A program made the translations under genes and the position numbers. A stretch of 64,000 nucleotides of DNA from positions 196,001 to 260,000 of the forward strand of contig JACVTC010000076.1 of NCBI GenBank assembly GCA_016946835.1, given 5' to 3'. The DNA is from Neocallimastix lanati (nom. inval.). Its lineage: Eukaryota; Neocallimastigomycota; Neocallimastigomycetes; Neocallimastigales; Neocallimastigaceae. A model generated the notes under the pieces. The model did not search any database. It saw only the letters and a list, made by a program, of their open reading frames with translations, and had not been told where the DNA came from. Positions 1,960-25,016 of this stretch are shown in pieces (positions within the stretch are counted from its first letter, which is position 1; each line of letters starts with the position of its first letter).

Positions 1960-2794
1960 TGGTAAAGAACGAACATATAATGGATTATTAATTAGAATTT
2001 CAACTTACTTTAGAATCCATTATATTATTCTTTACTTAATATTACTTTACTATATTTTCTATACTAAAATATTTTCTAAATATATTTTTTTTTTATTTTT
2101 ATTAAAAGTTTCTAAAATATTATCAATAATTCTATATTTTTATTATTAATATCAATATCTATAATTTAACCTTAAATTTTATTATTTTATTAAAGTGTTT
2201 ATTATCAATATTAATATTTAATTTTTATTTTCAAATATATTATTATATTATTATTATATTGTATCAATATTAAACTTGTATTTTTTTTGTATTTTATTTT
2301 ATTTTTAAATTGATTATTTAATATTTTTATTTCCCACAAATAAAATCAAATCTTAATTGATTAATAATAAATATTAAATATATTATAGTTTTTAAATTTA
2401 TTTTATATAAAATATAAGAATATTATATTAACATTCTTGATTAAAATAACTTTATTTTTCTGTGAAATCTTTTTAAATTTTGTTTGTTACTTTTCGTATA
2501 TATTAAATAATTTAGTTTTAGTATATGAAAAATAATATAAAATTATATAAACAAAATTTATTAAAATAAAAATACTTATGAATTAGTTAATTTAAATTAA
2601 TATAAAATTTTAATTAATTAGTAATAGTAAATTATTTTTTTTTAAATATGATAATAAAATGTAGAAAGGCTTTACATATTTATTCTTTTCAAAAAGTATA
2701 AATAAGTGAAGTTTTTCAATAATTAAAATGTAGACAGAAAAATATTAAAAATAAATAATTAAATAAAAATTCTAATAAAACCCGAACCATAACA
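1960..2794 (+). mobile_element. Ty3-type solo LTR (about 835 bp)
   Basis: Begins TGGTAAAGAACGAAC and ends CCCGAACCATAACA. Both neighbouring LTRs are separated from it by exactly TTTT. The length and the terminal motifs resemble the 785-bp LTRs of element 3. No internal coding sequence remains, so it is a solo LTR. Confidence 0.6.
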
Positions 2795-2798
2795 TTTT

Positions 2799-3304
2799 TG
2801 ATATGGTACCACCATAAATACCATAATTTAGTGAAATTTAGGTTAGAAATTATTTGATGAAATCTTATTGGTTAATAATAATTTAGTAATATTATATATA
2901 GTTAGTAAATAATAATAATTTAAAGAATGGTTCTTTTATTAATATTAATTTAGTTTATTAATAATTTAACCTATAAACATGTTTATTAGTATAGTTTAGT
3001 GTAGTTTTATATTTAGTTTACATTAATAACATAAGAGATTTTAGTAATTAATTATATTTTATTGAATGATTTAATTATATTTTAACTAGTTAACAAATAT
3101 TTATATTGATGATGTATTTTTATTGATGAATGATAATAAATAAATAAAATAAATAAACTAAATAATAAAGTGTGAATATTATTATTGTGTGTATTATTCT
3201 ATATAATATTAGAATATATTATTTTGTCAATTATTTCCAACTGTTATCGTCCAAATAAAATAAAATAAATATTGATATTGATGTTTAATAAAAATATCGT
3301 ATCA
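2799..3304 (+). mobile_element. Solo LTR of the element 2 family
   Basis: Starts TGATATGGTACCACC and ends AAAATATCGTATCA, forming a short terminal inverted repeat (TGATA.../...TATCA). It aligns along its length with the 5' and 3' LTRs of element 2 (21624-22126 and 24247-24741). As with the 3' LTR of element 2, it is followed by the roughly 90-bp spacer and the tRNA-Cys flank. A duplicated LTR-plus-tRNA unit is therefore likely. Confidence 0.7.
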
Positions 3305-3392
3305 TAATTTTTTATTAGCAGCGGTATGTTATATTTTTTTAGTAGCAAGCGGTATGTGGTATATTATATTAAATAATATATTTAAAAAAAAA

Positions 3393-3507
3393 GCAAATGA
3401 CTCATACTATGTATTTATCACACATTATATATTAGTGTCAAGGCTTCAAAGGAATTAGAAACCACTTCACATAGCAAATTCTCTTCATAGTCATTATTTC
3501 AATACAA
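3393..3507 (-). promoter_or_regulatory. Conserved 3' flank of tRNA-Cys copy 2
   Basis: Same 115-bp block as at 1564-1678, with the B-box-like motif at 3451-3463. The homology with copy 3 extends further left, through an approximately 90-bp spacer (3305-3392) into the element 2 type LTR. Confidence 0.5.
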
Positions 3508-3579
3508 AGGGGCGTTCCGGATTTGAACCGAAGACCTATTGATCTGCAGTCAATTGCTCTACCGCTGAGCTAACACCCC
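3508..3579 (-). tRNA. tRNA-Cys (GCA), copy 2
   Basis: Identical over the whole gene to copies 1 and 3, including anticodon GCA, the T-arm B box and U73. An LTR beginning TGATACGATACC starts at 3594, 14 bp upstream of the mature 5' end. Confidence 0.95.
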
Positions 3580-3593
3580 ATTTCTAAAATTTT

Positions 3594-4251
3594 TGATACG
3601 ATACCACTATAAAAATAAGATTTAGGTAAGAAATTTAGGTTAGAAATATTGTATAAATATTATTGGTTATAATAATTAAAATAATTTATATATAGTTAAT
3701 TCAAATAATTATTTTTAAAAGCATGGTTAATTCTTTTATCATAATTAAAATAGATAAATTATATTAATAATGATTCTATTATTATGATAATAAATTAATT
3801 CATCATTATTATTAATAAGTTTTATTTTATATTTTAAATATTATTTTGAGAATTATATAGTTTTAGGAATTATATTATAAATATTGATAATTATATTTTA
3901 TTCAGGAAATATATTTTAAATATTAATAGTTAAATATATTTAATAATGAAATTGTATTTTTAAATAAAGTTATTAGGAAATTAATAGTTAAAGAGATATG
4001 TTTAATAAAAATATAATATTAATTAATTATTTTAACAATTATATAAAATTAAGAGAATGTAATAATAAATTATTATGTATGTAAAAATAAAATTATAAAA
4101 ATAAATAAAGAACAAAATATTATTATAAAACATTATTATTATAAATTATTTTCTTATATTTATTAGAATATATTATTGTGTCATAATTCCCTAGAGAAAC
4201 GACCAAATAAATAAATAACTAGATATGGAATATTTTAAATGTTCTGTATCA
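3594..4251 (+). mobile_element. Solo LTR, divergent element 2 type
   Basis: Begins TGATACGATACCACTAT and ends TTCTGTATCA, resembling element 2 LTR ends. It starts 14 bp upstream of tRNA-Cys copy 2 and is followed by a T run and the next LTR. No coding capacity. Confidence 0.55.
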
Positions 4252-4256
4252 TTTTT

Positions 4257-5088
4257 TGTTACGATACAAATAATAAATAAAAAATAAATAAAAAATTAAA
4301 TAAACTATTAAGATTAATTAATAAATAAATAAGAATAAATACTAAAGTATTAAAATATATAATAAGGAAATTAAATAATGCATAAATAATTAAATTATTT
4401 AAAATAATGTATTAATTGTATTTATTTAATATTGTAATAGTAAACAATTAGATATTTTATTATAAATAATTAAAATTATATTTATTATTATTTTATATTT
4501 TTATTATAAAATTTTTATTATACTTTATTATATTTTTATTATTATCTTATATTAAATATTATATTAAAATTATATTTTATTATATTTTATTATTATAAAA
4601 TTATTATATTTTTGTTATTATATTTTTATTATATTTTATATTTTTATTTTTATTTTTACTCCAATCAAATAAATGTTTTAATGATATAAAAAGAACAAAG
4701 TAAAACAATACTTTAGTTCTTCCTCTTCTTTCAACTTTATTTTTATATTTTTCTTTTAATTTTTCGAGAATGAAATAGTAAATATTTAGTATTAGTATTA
4801 ATAAATAATTAAATAAATAATTATATAAAATTAAATTGTTCTCTAGTTAAATTGATTAGTTTTGTTTTTGTGTTTTATTATAGTTAAAGATAAAAATAAT
4901 TTTGGTTAGTTTAAATATTTAGTTTGTTTTGGTAATTTAGTTTTAATTTAGAGATAAATTTTATTAAAATATTTATTTAGGTTATTTATATTAGAATAGT
5001 TAAAATAATATTTATTTTGTTAGTGAAAAATTAAATTTTTAATTATTAGAATATATTATTTTTTTTAATAATCTTCAATTCTGTACCA
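4257..5088 (+). mobile_element. Solo LTR in tandem array
   Basis: Bounded by TGTTACGATAC at the left and CTGTACCA at the right, with T-only spacers on both sides. The length (about 830 bp) matches other LTRs of the array. Boundaries rest on the repeated CA-TTTT-TG junction pattern rather than on a second full copy in the window. Confidence 0.45.
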
Positions 5089-5092
5089 TTTT

Positions 5093-5703
5093 TGATAAAG
5101 GATTAAATTATAAATCAATAAAACATTATATTATTGAAAATGAATAAAATTATTAAACAAAATAAAATAAATCATATTACCATCTAAACAATAACTATAA
5201 ATTAATTAAAAATAATAAAAGTAAATATTTTAAATAAATAATATAAATAAATTAAATTGTTAAAATAATTAAAATTATTAAATATTAAATATTTTATTTT
5301 AAAGAACAATGTAATTTTGATAATAAAAATTAAAAATGTTATATTATAAAAATCTTAATGTAAACTTAAGTTTAAAAATAATGATAATTGTTTAAAAATA
5401 ATAATTAGATAGGTTTATTTTAAAATCTTTAATTTAAAAGAAAAATATATAAACTTGTAAAAATAATCTCAAATTTAAAGAAACAGAATTAATAAAAAAA
5501 AAATAATTAATTTCTCAAAAATTATTAATTTAAAATTTTATTATCTTTTAACTTAAAAGAAATTTGCTTTTCTTTATAAGTTTAAGATATTTTGTGTTTT
5601 AATAAAATTTTAATTTATTGATTATAAAACATTTAATTTTGTTATACTTATTATCACTTTTAGAAATTAAATTCTAAATTAAGATAATAAGCAAACTATA
5701 ACA
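5093..5703 (+). mobile_element. Solo LTR in tandem array
   Basis: Begins TGATAAAGGATT directly after TTTT and ends ...AACTATAACA before another short T spacer. No internal coding sequence. Confidence 0.4.
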
Positions 5704-6537
5704 TTTTGATAAATAACAAAATTATTAAATTAAAATAAATAATAAAAAACAAATTCTGTCTAATTTAACCCAAAAATTAATCCATTCTAAAAAAAAAAAT
5801 TAAATCCATATTAAAGAAAATTTAATTAAATAAAAATAATTAAAATAAAATAATAATTTAATTAATCATTAATAATTTTAATTAAAAACTAAAATAAATT
5901 AATAAATAATATTTTTCTAAAACTACAAATAAACAAAATAATAAACATATTTAATAAATTATAAATAACAAATAAACAAACTTATAAACATCGCAAAATT
6001 AAAATTAAATAGTTTAATAATTTTTTAAGTTACTTTTATTTAAAATAATGATTATTTTATTTATTTTATAACTCAACTTTTATAAACAAATTGTAATTAA
6101 AATAACATTTTAAAACTCATCTTTATTAATATTTTAATTGTAAATATTGTTTAATTTAATAATAAATTTTTCTTTATTTCTCTTTTATTAATTTTATTAT
6201 TTTTAATGTAAATAGTTTAAAATCAAAGAAAAATATAAAAACATGTAAATATTTCTTATAAATTATTCTTTATTATTAATTATTTAATAAATTATTATAG
6301 ATATTTTATTAGTTTTTAATAATCAATTTTTATGATTATTAATTATTTTGATAAATTATTATATATTTTATTATTTTTTTGTAAGAAACTATAATTATTT
6401 GTTAAATAATTATAATTTCTTTATTTGATTATTTATCTATTATATAATTTATACATTCATTCATTAAATTAATAATTATTTATCAAGTTAATATGTATTT
6501 GTACATTTAATTATAGTTTTAATTTAATTAAAAAATT

Positions 6538-6773
6538 TGTTAAAATATAAATATTGAAGTTTTGTATATATATAATATTAAGGAGTTTTGTGATATATTT
6601 TAATATATATTTTCAAGTATAAGACCAATAATATATTTGTGTAACCTTAATAAAATAACTATAAATATTTTATAATATAAATCTCTTCAACAATAACTCC
6701 TTTTAATAAAAAACACGAAATTAGATTCTCACATTTTTAAAACATAATCAAAGGAGATTTCTTATATTTAACA
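6538..6773 (+). repeat. 5' LTR of the gene-carrying element
   Basis: 236 bp, TGTT...AACA, identical by eye to 11357-11592, preceded by target duplication AAATT (6533-6537). Confidence 0.9.
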
Positions 6774-7389
6774 GATTAAGAGTCTCAATCTCACCAAATT
6801 GAGCAAAAAAGCTAAGTTAAGTAAAATAATAAATAATATTATTTATAATATTTATAATATTATTAATCTCTATTTTATTTTAAATATATAATATTAAAAT
6901 TATAATAAATTAACATTCAATTTTAAAATTATAATAAATTATCATTCAATAATAAAATAAACAAAAATAAACTTCTTTAAATAAACAAAAATAAATTTCT
7001 TAAAATAAATAAACTCTTTATCTAATAAATAAATTCAAATGAAATATATAATTCTTGTATTAATATAAGTATTAATTGTGCTCTTTTTAAAATTCATAAT
7101 TTTGAAATGCATTATTAATATAAAATAAAATGAAGTAAATATTTTTAAAAAAAAAAATAAATAAATAAATAATTATAATAAATAAAAATAAAAAGAGATA
7201 TATAAATAAATCTTTATATTAAGAATAGCCTAAAATTTAAATTAAATATTTTATTAAGTAATAATAAAAAAAAACAAAATAAAATACAATCAATCTTCCC
7301 ATTATACAATAAATAAATTAATTAATAATTAATTAAATATATTTAAATAAAAATTATTAATGTTGTCATTTAATAATAAATAAAATGAG

Positions 7390-7635
7390 AATAGTCAACT
7401 AATAACTATTTGTAAAATGAATAAAAATAAATGACAGTTAAATAGTGTTATTAAGTTGAAAAATAATAATAAAACAATAGTCAACCATTTTGGGTTGAAA
7501 ATAATTGTATAATAAGATGAAATAATAAATTATGTTATAATATGTTAAGTTGAAAATATACAATTTAATAGTCAACTAACATATTTATAAAATAAAAAAG
7601 GCCTTAATAGTCAACTAAATAATTAAGTTGAAAAT
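7390..7635. repeat. Interspersed AGTCAAC / GTTGA short repeats
   Basis: The octamer-like word ATAGTCAAC occurs at about 7391, 7477, 7568 and 7606. It alternates with AAGTTGAAAA or GGTTGAAAA at about 7453, 7493, 7546 and 7625. The two words are largely complementary, so adjacent pairs can fold into hairpins. The array lies in the left interior of the gene-carrying LTR element. No function is known to me; it could be a cis packaging or leader structure. Confidence 0.45.
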
Positions 7636-7824
7636 ATTACGATAATATTATTTAATTAAAATATTGTATTAATGGGAAAGATATAATTAATAATTAAAAG
7701 AAAATTAGCAATAAAATAAATCAAGATTTAAAAAAAAATTAAGATAAAAAATAAAAATTATATACAAAAATATTTACTTCATAAATTAATATATGACTTA
7801 ATTTAAGTTCCTTTAGGTATTATA

Positions 7825-8030
7825 GTGATTTTATGTATTGTCATTATCATTAATCAAATATTTAGAACCATTGGCTTCAATTTTCCAGCCAATGTAGCAG
7901 GAATACTTATCGTGAGTGTGATTATTATTATTGGAAAGAGAAACTTAAAGAAGTCTACTATGGTCTCCATTTTAAAATGGATTAATCCTGTGGTTGAATT
8001 TATTATGAATTGAATGGTATACAAAAAAAA
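7825..8030 (+). pseudogene. Fragment resembling an LrgA/CidA-type membrane domain
   Basis: The plus-strand frame contains FNFPANVAGILIV followed by a hydrophobic stretch, then KWINPVVEFIMN. Fungal LrgAB-like proteins carry FPANVAGM and, after the next helix, a xxPxxFxLRWI-type segment, and the match in order and spacing is good. Only about 65 residues are present, far short of the family's several hundred, so this is a captured fragment inside the LTR element rather than a gene. The family call comes from memory of the motif. Confidence 0.45.
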
Positions 8031-8280
8031 AAAAAACAAGGCCACAGTGATAAACGAAATGGAAAAGGAAATAGATATTAAAATAATTCTAATACTACCA
8101 CTACTACTACTACTACTAACACTAATTGTAATAATAGTATATTGAAACAAATATAAAGGATAAAATAACATAAATTAAATAAGTACTAATTTATATAATA
8201 ATTATAATTTAAATCAAAGTTCAACTTCAAAATTAGACAAACAAACAATTTTAAATTTAATCAAAATGCAAACCACTTAC

Positions 8281-8355
8281 AGAATCAATTATGGCTTCGT
8301 TCTCATTGTAGGACGGATCCAAATAACGTCGATCATGTACAATTCCCATTTGAAA
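8281..8355 (-). pseudogene. Captured exon with intact splice signals (unknown host gene)
   Basis: On the minus strand an intron-like stretch ends in GCATTTTCAG just before 8355. Exactly 75 open nucleotides follow (25 codons, phase 0; FQMGIVHDRRYLDPSYNENE and five more residues). Then comes the consensus donor GTAAGT (8280-8275). More minus-strand coding-like sequence lies at about 8596-9130, with frames containing KALKELLKYNNIKASCSGAL and YLENDVLFNSIIHQ, but too decayed to name. The exon is antisense to the LTR element, so the intron would survive in the element's own transcript. Confidence 0.5.
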
Positions 8356-8595
8356 CTGAAAATGCAAAAAATTAATACAACAAAAGATCTTAGATAATGT
8401 GATCATCGCTCAAAAGATCAAAGAACAAAATCAAGAATTAGCTCATTTTTTTTGCAAATATTGATGAAAAAAAGAAAAATAAATGAAGAATGAGAAAACA
8501 AGAACAATGTTTTGCTTTCTCCAATTGATTTAGATTTAATATCCAATAATTCAAGTAATTTATTATTAAAAAATAGTATAAATGTAAACAATAAT

Positions 8596-9135
8596 TTATA
8601 TATTAATCCAAATGTAAACATTAACAATATCATAAGTAGTCCAATTAATCCAAAAGTGACCAGTAAAGAAAGCAACAACACTATCAACAAATGGTATAAA
8701 TAAATACATTGAATTAATTCCATCTTTATCATAGAGAGCACCAGAACAACTAGCCTTAATATTATTATATTTTAATAACTCTTTAAGAGCTTTAGAATCA
8801 GAAATAGTAAGTTCATAATGACTAATTGGAGTAAGAATATCTTTATAATCAGTTGAGGAATTTGGAACATCAAAGATTATATCTTTACACTTCATTTGAA
8901 TTTGTTCTGTTAATTATTACCTTCAGAATTTAATTGAGAACCTACAGTAGATTTAACTTGAGTAATATCAGCAAAATCTTTGAAGTATCTGGTTCTGAAT
9001 TTAAATATGCTACTCTAAAATTATTCTTTTTTTGATAATTTTCAATTTGTATTTTAAGTTCAGCAAGAAAAATTTGATGAATAATAGAATTAAATAGAAC
9101 ATCATTTTCTAAATAAACTGAATTAATAGGTAATG
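8596..9135 (-). pseudogene. Decayed coding-like sequence, family not recognised
   Basis: Minus-strand frames give short stretches of ordinary-looking protein, not the Ile/Asn/Lys noise of the spacers: KCKDIIFDVPNSSTDYKDIL and YLENDVLFNSIIHQIFLAEL, among others. GC content is visibly higher than in the surrounding filler. It probably belongs to the same source gene as the exon at 8281-8355. I cannot name a family. Confidence 0.35.
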
Positions 9136-9339
9136 TAACGAAATAGAAGAGAATGCTATAACTATCTAAATAGTTTGAATAATAGAAATTTTTGTTCCTT
9201 CAGTAATAATGTTTTCATTTTAATTTGAAATTCTAGAATATTTGTTATAAATATTCTTAAAGATAAAAACAAATAATCTTTAATATATCTGTAATAATAT
9301 TATGAAATAAAAAAAAAAACAAAACTAATGGAGATAATA

Positions 9340-10437
9340 TTGTCAACAATAATGATAATAACAATAATAATAGCAATAATAATGGTTAAATCGGTAATAA
9401 TAAATCAAAAATTTTAGCAAATGAAAGTACAACTGAAGAAACAAATAATGCTGTTATTATCTCTTTGTATGGTACAAGTGTATTTGCCTTAGTTACTATT
9501 ATTGGATTTATCCTAATAAAAAAAAAAGGCATTTATGTAAAACGGTAACATCGATATTTCATACAGTTCATTAAATTATGTTAGTCCAAAACCAAACTAT
9601 CCAGTAGGTGGATTGCACGATAATTTGACTAATTCAAATAATGACTTTAAACGTAATTATCAGTTAAGATTTTACAAATTATCAATCTCAAGTTAGTTAT
9701 TCAATTTCCTTAAGTGATGGTTCATGTGTCAACATGGAATAAAATTCTGATGTTTTCTAAACCACTGAAAATACTCCAGTTCCATGTTTATCAAGAGATC
9801 TACATAGATTTACAAAGAGATTCACCAAAGGAATCACCACCATATAATAATCAAAAAGATTTACTAATCATTAAACATGTTGATTAAGAAATTGTTATTA
9901 ACTCAGAAATGTTTTTAAGTGAAACCATAAACTCTAACACAATTTCTATTTTTGCTACAACTACTACATTTATTTTAGCTATTAATAAATGTGATGATCT
10001 TACCATAGACAACTCTAATATTATTGTTAAAAAGCCAAATACTAATAATAATAAAAAAAAAAAAAAAATCCAACGTCACATCAAGTACTTGCACTTCATG
10101 CAGTACATCTTCATGTTCTTCTTGTAATAATTGATCCTGTTCACACAACGGCTCAGGAACTTGCTGTTGTATTGCAGAGAATCATCAAGATAGACTACAA
10201 CATCTACCGATGAATCATCCTTATATTTCAAGCCATACTATCCGTTCAATTTTGCAAATAACTCAAATATGGGAGATACCACTCGTAGATACTCTGTCAT
10301 TATTGACAATAACAGTAATAAAGATTCCGTTACTTACACCGAAACTAATTATGACGATAGTCGTAGAACGACAAATTATACTGAAACTAATTACAATAGT
10401 CATAGAACAACAGAATATAAGGAAACAGAAGTTTAAT
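9340..10437 (+). pseudogene. Captured 3' part of a single-pass membrane protein gene
   Basis: The start is an Asn-rich stretch followed by a Thr/Glu-rich stem and one clear membrane segment (NAVIISLYGTSVFALVTIIG, about 9450-9510) ending in Ile-Lys-Lys-Lys. A cytoplasmic-looking, Ser/Pro/Asn-rich tail follows in pieces. It ends at about 10437 with two near-repeats, YTETNYDDSRRTT and YTETNYNSHRTT. Surface proteins with a low-complexity ectodomain, one C-terminal helix and a short tail are common in anaerobic fungi; that link is inference. The fragment is non-functional and sits inside the young LTR element. Confidence 0.45.
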
Positions 10438-10654
10438 TGAATTATTGGTAGACAATGGATAGATATTTATAATGAAAATAAATTTAGGGAAACACAATTA
10501 TTTTATGCATGTAAAAGTTGAAATAAAAAATTTTGTAGAAATAAATAGAATATCTAGTAATACTTGTAATAGATATAAATGAATAGTAATCATAAAAACG
10601 AAACAAAAAAATAATAATAATTACAGTTTAATGTGTGTAGTTCTTTAAATTTCG

Positions 10655-10693
<39 letters not shown>
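10655..10693 (+). repeat. Poly(A) run of 39
   Basis: An uninterrupted run of 39 A lies about 215 bp after the end of the membrane-protein fragment. It may be the tail of a captured cDNA or simple slippage. Long A/T runs occur throughout this window, so the first reading is weak. Confidence 0.6.
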
Positions 10694-10696
<3 letters not shown>

Positions 10697-10729
10697 TAAA
10701 TATCAAATTAATTTGATTAATTTGTATAT

Positions 10730-11090
10730 GATGAGGAAGATTTTCTATCCATTTGGTATCTTTATCATCCCATACGATTGTTCAACAACCATATTCAGTC
10801 AAGGCTATTTCAACATTAGTCTTACTATTAGGATCTTGATAAACAACTCAATCATAATAACGAACTCGGTTAAACTCAATCGGTTGATTGTAAAATGCAA
10901 TCACCACTTCTATTGCTTGTACAATAACATTTATTACTTTTAATATTAACATAACCTTTAATGTCACAGTCATCAGGGTTATCTCTATTGTTTGGAACAA
11001 ATCTCATACTAGTATGCTTATTTCTATTATAGCAATCAGAAAAAATACCATTTTAAGTATCTATATCTATGATTTACAATTTATAAACAA
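10730..11090 (-). pseudogene. Captured fragment of a Cys-containing protein, family unknown
   Basis: The minus-strand frame reads KHTSMRFVPNNRDNPDDCDI, then GYVNIKSNKCYC, a composition typical of a secreted or surface domain and not of spacer noise. Too short and decayed to assign. It is the rightmost of the captured pieces before the polypurine tract. Confidence 0.35.
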
Positions 11091-11356
11091 TCTTTGTAAT
11101 TATCTTAAATAACTATTTTCTCTTTGTTGTAAATCAGCCAAATCATTTTACTCGACATATATTATATAGTACTATACTAAAATTATAATATATTAATATT
11201 AAACATCGAATATAATGTAAATATTATCTAACTATATAAATCTATACTCTTTATAGTTTAATCGTCAATATAGACGATACAACTTGATACCAAATTATTT
11301 CTGCTGCAAATCTTAATTCAAGTCTTATTTTTTATGAAGTTAGACTTGAGGGGGAG

Positions 11357-11592
11357 TGTTAAAATATAAATATTGAAGTTTTGTATATATATAATATTAA
11401 GGAGTTTTGTGATATATTTTAATATATATTTTCAAGTATAAGACCAATAATATATTTGTGTAACCTTAATAAAATAACTATAAATATTTTATAATATAAA
11501 TCTCTTCAACAATAACTCCTTTTAATAAAAAACACGAAATTAGATTCTCACATTTTTAAAACATAATCAAAGGAGATTTCTTATATTTAACA
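11357..11592 (+). repeat. 3' LTR of the gene-carrying element
   Basis: 236 bp, identical by eye to 6538-6773. The polypurine tract lies immediately upstream and target duplication AAATT (11593-11597) immediately downstream. Confidence 0.9.
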
Positions 11593-12241
11593 AAATTTCT
11601 TTAAATTTATTTAGTATTCATTTATTTTATTTAATTTATTTAATTAATTATAAAATTTATTAATTTCTATAGTAATAAATTAATTATTTAATTATTATTT
11701 TTAAATTAAAATTTGATTTAACTTATTCGGACTTTAAAGTTTTTTTTTTTATTTTCTTATTAAAATATAAATTAATTCTATCGGACTTTAAGGTTTTTTC
11801 TAATTTATTATATTAATAAATTGGTTTTTCCTTAAAGAACTTATCTAGTTTTTTCTTCTAATCTTTTTCTAGATAAGATCATTGTTAAGATTAGAAAACC
11901 TTTTAATTTATTATTTTATATAAATTTTTATTATTTAATTTTTCGTATAAATAGCTATTGATTTCTCTAAATTTTTGAGAAATCAAGAGTTATTATTATA
12001 TAACAAATATTAATAAATATATAATAATAATCAATAAAATCTACAAACATTTTCAATAAGTGTTCTTTTATTTTTGTGTTGTTTATTATATTTGTTTATA
12101 ATAAACTCTTCTCTGTTAAGATAAGTTAAAATTTTCTTTATTTTTTCTAATTGTTTTCTTATTTTCTCAACTTGATGTTAGTATCAGGTTGTAGTTAATA
12201 ATTTTGTTATAATAAATATTATAATGAAATTATTACATTTT

Positions 12242-24944: not shown

Positions 24945-25016
24945 AGGGGCGTTCCGGATTTGAACCGAAGACCTATTGATCTGCAGTCAATTGCTCTACC
25001 GCTGAGCTAACACCCC
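24945..25016 (-). tRNA. tRNA-Cys (GCA), copy 3
   Basis: Identical to copies 1 and 2. Here the gene is flanked on both sides by complete elements: element 2 ends about 200 bp past its 3' end, and element 3 begins 15 bp upstream of its 5' end. Confidence 0.95.

Follow-up and report, generated by a model that had tools for sequence, protein, structure and literature searches.

We examined a 64,000-nucleotide window of the Neocallimastix lanati genome (in G000:C732; 21.6% GC) that contains, at 6538–11592, an insertion bounded by long terminal repeats (LTRs). We consider it probable that this insertion is a non-autonomous LTR retroelement, present in eight complete copies, in which four rearranged host-gene fragments replace gag-pol and which is likely moved by the enzymes of Ty1/copia elements with the same primer site. 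The 5' and 3' LTRs of the window copy (6538–6773 and 11357–11592, plus strand) are identical at 236 of 236 positions and have the termini TGTTAA...TTAACA. A perfect AAATT target duplication lies on both sides of the element (6533–6537 and 11593–11597), a primer-binding site (PBS; GATTAAGAGTCTCAAT, 6774–6789, plus strand) directly follows the 5' LTR, and a polypurine tract (PPT) GAGGGGGAG, annotated on the plus strand at 11346–11356 as TTGAGGGGGAG, abuts the 3' LTR with its last base at 11356. Identical LTRs, duplication and PPT had all been recognised in a preliminary description of this DNA.

Searches for copies and cargo were run on the N. lanati genome itself (199 Mb, 762 contigs) and, unless stated otherwise, scored the best candidates only. 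The LTR gave at least 41 matches (best 40 of 112 candidates scored). Eight complete copies of 5047 to 5098 bp lie on contigs C732, C357, C88, C757, C151, C90, C14 and C114; the 5-bp duplications are perfect in all of them (AAATT, AAATA, AAAAG, GTTTT, ATTAT, TATTT, TATTC and CAAAT), and both duplication and flanks differ at each site. All eight show the hallmarks of an LTR retrotransposon: paired LTRs, TG...CA ends, target duplication, PBS and PPT. The interiors of the seven other copies are 97.6–99.1% identical to that of the window copy, and the two LTRs of a copy mismatch at 3 of 1652 bp summed over seven copies, with an 8-bp indel in the eighth. A kilobase-scale interior, no retroviral protein and multiple near-identical copies place the element with non-autonomous elements of the large retrotransposon derivative (LARD) type. 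We also found a ninth copy, on C102, whose 3' LTR is truncated and which offers no duplication to compare; the 3' part of the element only on C199 (within the 10 kb examined); and a solo LTR with an ACTGC duplication at C390:328248. Older relatives on C511 and C109 are 86–93% identical across parts of the interior, and cargo searches reached more relatives on C677, C710, C131, C421, C379, C112, C479, C2, C68 and C179. The preliminary description had proposed a gene-capturing, non-autonomous LTR element and a genome-wide search with LTR and interior as a check; eight insertions with the same interior in different flanks, together with four interior pieces that align to host loci, support the proposal.

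Host-gene fragments and missing introns

Five interior pieces were searched as protein and one stretch as DNA. Four of them align to host loci on four contigs (C761, C740, C566 and C1); fragments of unlinked host genes thus lie within one amplified LTR unit, as in gene-transducing elements of the Bs1 kind. The pieces with donors run plus, minus, plus, minus along the element, an alternation that may be chance. Coding parts of the nearest host genes are about 81–93% identical to the cargo, compared with the 97.6–99.1% among copies, in agreement with the earlier suggestion that the cargo is older than the insertions.

The LrgA-like membrane-protein fragment (7769–8139, plus strand, sense), which had been noticed on that strand before, has its nearest host gene at G000:C761:~126931 (81% identity in the protein search, frame of 431 aa). 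It carries an internal deletion of about 180 bp, and its Pfam LrgA score of 27.7 bits is slightly below the 28-bit cut-off. All 12 candidates of its genome search were scored, and the 11 matches comprise nine young copies, the donor on C761 and a paralogue on C43. The Agd3-like (CBM87/deacetylase) fragment (8616–9277, minus strand, antisense) is nearest to G000:C740:~149237-149653, at 77–78% protein identity, followed by C150 at 65%; the C740 gene scores above the cut-offs for both CBM87_Agd3 (33.4 bits) and the Agd3 deacetylase domain (92.4 bits). A large membrane-protein fragment (9313–10426, plus strand, sense) is nearest to a 670-aa frame at G000:C566:~985690 (76%, protein search). The fourth piece (10707–11299, minus strand) is the 5' part of a PLC-like gene with upstream spacer and an in-frame 168-bp deletion. 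Its host locus is G000:C1:~1666200-1667400, where the nearest frame has 211 aa (80%, protein search). No Pfam family matched this C1 frame; a relative 80% identical to it scores above the cut-off for PI-PLC-X, and a Piromyces homologue is named PLC-like phosphodiesterase.

Two further stretches have no single donor gene. The coding-looking piece at 8257–8409 (minus strand) has no donor: of its 21 genome matches, not one falls in an open frame of more than 53 aa. The stretch at 10421–10612 (plus strand) matches a dispersed, often tandem, genomic repeat with at least 82 matches including the element copies (best 40 of 209 candidates scored); a by-eye impression of ankyrin-like sequence here was unsupported, Pfam giving 0 families for its 26-aa frame. 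A run of 39 A follows at 10655–10693 (plus strand), ranging from 13 to 39 A across the eight copies, which may be the captured poly(A) tail of an mRNA. The membrane-protein tail and the A-run described earlier as poly(A) are both present on the plus strand, except that they do not directly follow one another, the repeat match lying between.

Comparison with the host genes revealed that introns are missing from three pieces: one from LrgA, two from Agd3 and one from the membrane protein, all four GT...AG. With its introns removed, the Agd3 host sequence aligns with the element continuously across the joins, in antisense, over 690 columns at 89.3% identity. The corresponding LrgA alignment spans 251 bp without gaps (92.8%), and that of the membrane protein 1170 columns (81.4%). 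By eye, both introns sit at matching positions in the C150 paralogue of Agd3 (65%), and the C43 paralogue of LrgA has an acceptor at the position seen in the donor; the introns therefore predate the capture. As the Agd3 piece is antisense, splicing of the element's own RNA cannot account for its missing introns, and judging from the sequence, spliced host mRNA is its likely source. This piece, which lacks both donor introns, does not fit the intron-bearing minus-strand exon of the preliminary description; the second minus-strand piece, at 8257–8409, was perhaps the one meant.

The PLC-like piece differs from the other three: in older copies it belongs to a stretch of unspliced antisense DNA from two neighbouring genes and the spacer between them. 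In the older copies L023/L044, L024, L028, L029 and L030, the PLC end runs antisense via the spacer into a Cys-rich membrane-protein gene. On C1 the two genes are same-strand neighbours, the Cys-rich one immediately upstream, and by eye the C1 sequence is frameshifted there relative to the element's frame. L023/L044 aligns to C1 through the spacer with no large gap except a later-inserted solo LTR; in L024, L028, L029 and L030 another 158 bp of spacer is absent. The 168-bp deletion in the PLC coding part, which has TCTG microhomology, occurs in the window copy and also at each of the four older places covering it. We rejected an intron as the cause of this gap, as it has no GT...AG on either strand (by eye) and shows the microhomology. 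The shared deletion and the differing spacers suggest that the two-gene segment probably entered once and was trimmed later. In young copies the Cys-rich part is gone, with the join at an AATTATT microhomology. The minus-strand piece that had been described as Cys-rich is the 5' part of the PLC-like gene.

Primer site, leader and possible mobilisation

Consistent with the earlier statement that the interior holds no retroviral protein, Pfam identified no retroviral domain in 10 interior frames; there were three matches below cut-off, CBM87_Agd3 among them. Twelve same-genome copia fragments (Gag, protease, integrase, reverse transcriptase and RNase H) reached the interior at a best E of 0.31, which is chance level, and the same 12 queries reach other loci at E 1e-5 or better. 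In the search for an autonomous partner, RVT_2 matches (best 150 of 2891 candidates scored) were compared by eye with about 100 PBS places, the PBS searches having returned 350 and 95 places. Within these limits no RVT_2 match lay inside the elements, and one, C14:58999-59715, is about 2.2 kb outside a copy. The LTR at C357:117037 was tried as the 5' LTR of a downstream gag element and rejected: no PBS follows this LTR, which looks like a solo one, and a separate PBS belonging to the gag element lies 2.5 kb further on.

The PBS right after the 5' LTR contains ATTAAGAGTCT, which is reported as the tRNA-Lys-internal PBS of the fungal copia element FunCo1 (PMC5445492). The two share a PBS with ATTAAGAGTCT, described for FunCo1 as complementary to an internal part of tRNA-Lys, and differ in that gag-pol is absent here and the leader is a hairpin array. 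Two copia genes with zinc-knuckle Gag, L060 and L061, are likewise preceded by AACA and the PBS core; these were picked for RVT_2 matches within open frames of 1515 and 1225 aa, and 2 kb of each was examined. The core also stands ahead of gag/pol-bearing sequence in L040, L042 and L043. It is thus the PBS alone, shared with the resident copia genes L060 and L061, that points to a Ty1/copia affiliation.

Downstream of the PBS, the leader contains a hairpin array with GTTGA/TCAAC arms (7395–7631, plus strand; fold of 7360–7680). The fold has a z of -2.88, and 0 of 100 shuffles were as stable. Among 15 leaders examined, GCTGA...TCAGC pairs occur in eight, GTTGA...TCAAC pairs (in either order) in four, namely the young leader, L055, L044b and L046b, and neither in three; L055 has one GC-type pair in addition. 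Mixed arm pairs were seen in two cases, both in L058, and shuffles give at most 0.03. These pairing-preserving base changes suggest that the leader forms RNA hairpins, with few events to count since repeats within one leader are not independent. We rejected a sharing of these hairpins by copia elements, except for L042.

Hairpins in the 5' domain of Ty1 are reported to function in packaging and dimerisation, and Ty1 mini-elements to rely on helper proteins in trans (PMC5454406). By analogy, the leader hairpins may have a packaging role here, and we infer mobilisation in trans by a copia helper. PBS places look dense on C90, C379, C390, C154, C212, C511, C75, C102 and C114 and sparse on larger contigs such as C112 and C1, in counts not normalised to contig size.

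Order and routes of cargo acquisition

The copies differ in cargo in a way that suggests an order. With 12 of 12 candidates scored, the LrgA fragment had no match in the older relatives. The young LTR is about 90% similar to that of the old carriers, and the first 110–160 bp of the young leader match older leaders at 72–75% (BLAST). Compared as a whole against shuffles, the young leader is closest to that of L055, with a z of 6.7, the highest of ten leaders. The other nine, which include older carriers, are at 2.7 or less (L046, 2.7; L043, 1.6; L049, 1.5; L058, 1.3; L044b, 0.5; L041 and L042, -0.3; L045, -0.5; L050, -1.1). A leader closest to L055 next to an LTR like that of the old carriers points to recombination, which may have introduced a new leader together with the LrgA piece or close to it. 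In Neocallimastix sp. 'constans', the single chain of the predicted protein P0013 runs through Agd3, the 8257 piece and LrgA in antisense and matches the minus strand of the window, so the LrgA-bearing form is not confined to the N. lanati genome; the N. californiae prediction P0007 joins Agd3 and the 8257 piece. Public 'hypothetical proteins' (P0003, P0004 and P0005 of N. lanati, P0007 and P0013) fuse unrelated cargo fragments as one gene.

If the element is a non-autonomous LTR retroelement of this kind, copia Gag would package its RNA along with host mRNAs, perhaps via the leader hairpins, and reverse transcriptase would jump onto a spliced mRNA, or onto the cDNA made from it, and then return, with cargo added; integration in trans would use the LTR ends. 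The two-gene segment would have entered by another route, as read-through antisense RNA or genomic DNA. Cargo would have been gained stepwise, the Agd3, membrane-protein, repeat/A-run and PLC/Cys-rich pieces probably first; in the young lineage, the LrgA piece would later have come in with a different leader, and the Cys-rich piece would have dropped out at the AATTATT microhomology.

Several observations weigh against this account. Among the LTR neighbours, RVT_2 places and PBS sites examined there is no autonomous element with this LTR; LTR matches in the examined loci are cargo copies, solo LTRs, or cases with pol misoriented or separate. A tRNA-Lys gene pattern had 0 genome matches, although an intron in the tRNA gene would hide it. 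A hairpin array is present in one of five copia leaders sampled (L042, and not L043, L040, L060 or L061). The named donors are the nearest paralogues by sequence, and the true donors may be others. The missing introns of the two sense pieces are also explained if the element's own RNA was spliced, and Agd3 paralogues at 31–37% have long unbroken frames with no sign of these introns. Antisense spliced cargo would need two steps, from mRNA to cDNA and a switch onto that cDNA, or else the insertion of a processed copy. Finally, the A-run, variable in length (13–39), may be a genomic A-run, such runs being common in this DNA.

A more far-reaching version, which we offer tentatively as possible but rather improbable, is a lineage that collects messages: its RNA would ride in copia particles, repeatedly join spliced host mRNAs in both orientations, drop old cargo by microhomology jumps, swap its hairpin leader (and so its packaging helper) and reseed the genome with exon arrangements, some of which are now called genes.

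An alternative that we regard as unlikely but worth weighing is that LINE-like (long interspersed nuclear element) enzymes inserted processed pseudogenes, in either orientation, into a copia-type element, and that all were amplified together. Such retrocopies fit intron-free pieces in both orientations and an internal A-run, and a single step suffices for antisense spliced cargo. Against them, no clear target duplications were seen by eye at the piece boundaries, where short ones are hard to judge in AT-rich sequence, the left end of the Agd3 piece has no poly(T), and the PLC/Cys-rich segment covers two genes and their spacer. The same segment, being in its normal genomic order on C1, fits a composite origin, in which two LTR copies of the same orientation flanked a pre-existing region of gene fragments and their read-through RNA became mobile; read-through transduction has been described for plant elements (PMC13317346). 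We nevertheless judge this improbable, as the four nearest donors lie on four contigs, so that a single flanking region would not supply all of them, and LrgA matched young copies only. The four cargo-piece searches revealed no recognisable cargo order outside LTRs; no donor-side search of the whole order was made.

That the interior is a decayed copia gag-pol, which the copia-type PBS, PPT and 5-bp duplication would fit, is highly improbable and was rejected: there is no Gag, protease, integrase, reverse transcriptase or RNase H match, and the pieces align to host genes at up to 93% identity. An LTR pair created by assembly duplication, for which the identity of the LTRs could speak, is ruled out for practical purposes by eight copies that have eight different 5-bp duplications and distinct flanks. 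None of the three outcomes that the preliminary description had named as fatal to it, a single copy, a decayed copia gag-pol or an assembly duplication, was found.

Comparison with known systems and other loci

Bs1 of maize is described as an LTR retroelement with segments of three host genes (PMC13317346). As far as that account extends, the N. lanati element resembles Bs1 in holding fragments of several unrelated host genes, none full-length, within an LTR element. It differs from Bs1 in several respects: its host is a gut fungus, its pieces lie in both orientations, its copies show how cargo was gained and lost, it has an internal A-run, and no retroviral protein was found. We regard it as a fungal variant of the maize Bs1 kind. 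Surveys of rice and sorghum also report LTR elements that carry host gene fragments (PMC3726574).

Amplified host sequence bounded by LTR, PBS and PPT is known elsewhere as annotated, partly expressed genes, whereas here it consists of decayed fragments of several genes. The element shares with LARDs a kilobase-scale interior without retroviral genes, LTRs with PBS, PPT and target duplications, and near-identical copies; unlike LARDs, its LTRs are only 236 bp and its interior is made of host gene fragments. Pack-MULE, Pack-CACTA and Helitron elements have terminal inverted repeats or Helitron ends. We rejected membership in these classes, given direct LTRs, 5-bp duplications and the absence of introns from three pieces.

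In fungi, DNA transposons of Pyrenophora captured histone H3 (PMC3538342) and Helitron gene capture is described in Pleurotus (PMC4289320). On the available parts of these accounts, host fragments were amplified by a fungal transposable element there as here; those are DNA transposons, whereas the present element is an RNA-copying LTR element with intron-free cargo. The portion of a Pseudocercospora LARD screen available to us mentions no captured genes in LTR elements (PMC13041039). Among the matches listed in searches of the open-licence PMC literature we found no fungal LTR gene carrier, gene capture in fungi there being by DNA transposons and Helitrons, and no description in early-diverging fungi, in line with what the preliminary description had stated. 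With this element, the capture of several host genes by LTR retroelements extends to the Neocallimastigomycota, an early-branching lineage. Some copies have the LrgA or Cys-rich piece and others do not, and from this series one can read in which order cargo was captured and lost. The Agd3 piece, antisense and free of introns, points to an mRNA source, and the leader hairpins provide a testable candidate for a packaging signal. The results also call for caution in annotation, as some of the 'hypothetical proteins' of Neocallimastix have been predicted from element cargo.

This element group may capture genes habitually. A second case is formed by L055 (C357:122100-127600, 2703-5447) and L058 (C747:126800-130600), which carry Asn-rich host-like cargo and have an LTR-like end, the same PBS core and a hairpin leader. 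Their cargo gave ten matches, and the nearest long host frame is at C224:923623 (1013 aa, 52%).

Other loci were noted in passing. L045 (C390:773700-783600, ~3760-5175) is a derivative the size of a terminal-repeat retrotransposon in miniature (TRIM), with an interior of about 1.2 kb in which an old-type leader with hairpins is fused to the Cys-rich/PPT end; its 5' LTR is partly recognisable. In L046 (C75:168500-178499), an LTR of the old-carrier type stands between two copia gag regions that are inverted and point towards each other. One and the same old element is found on both C131 and C421, with positions shifted by a nearly constant 195 bp or so, as alleles or a segmental duplicate. Elsewhere in the window, three tRNA-Cys(GCA) genes lie on the minus strand within 24 kb (1679–1750, 3508–3579 and 24945–25016).

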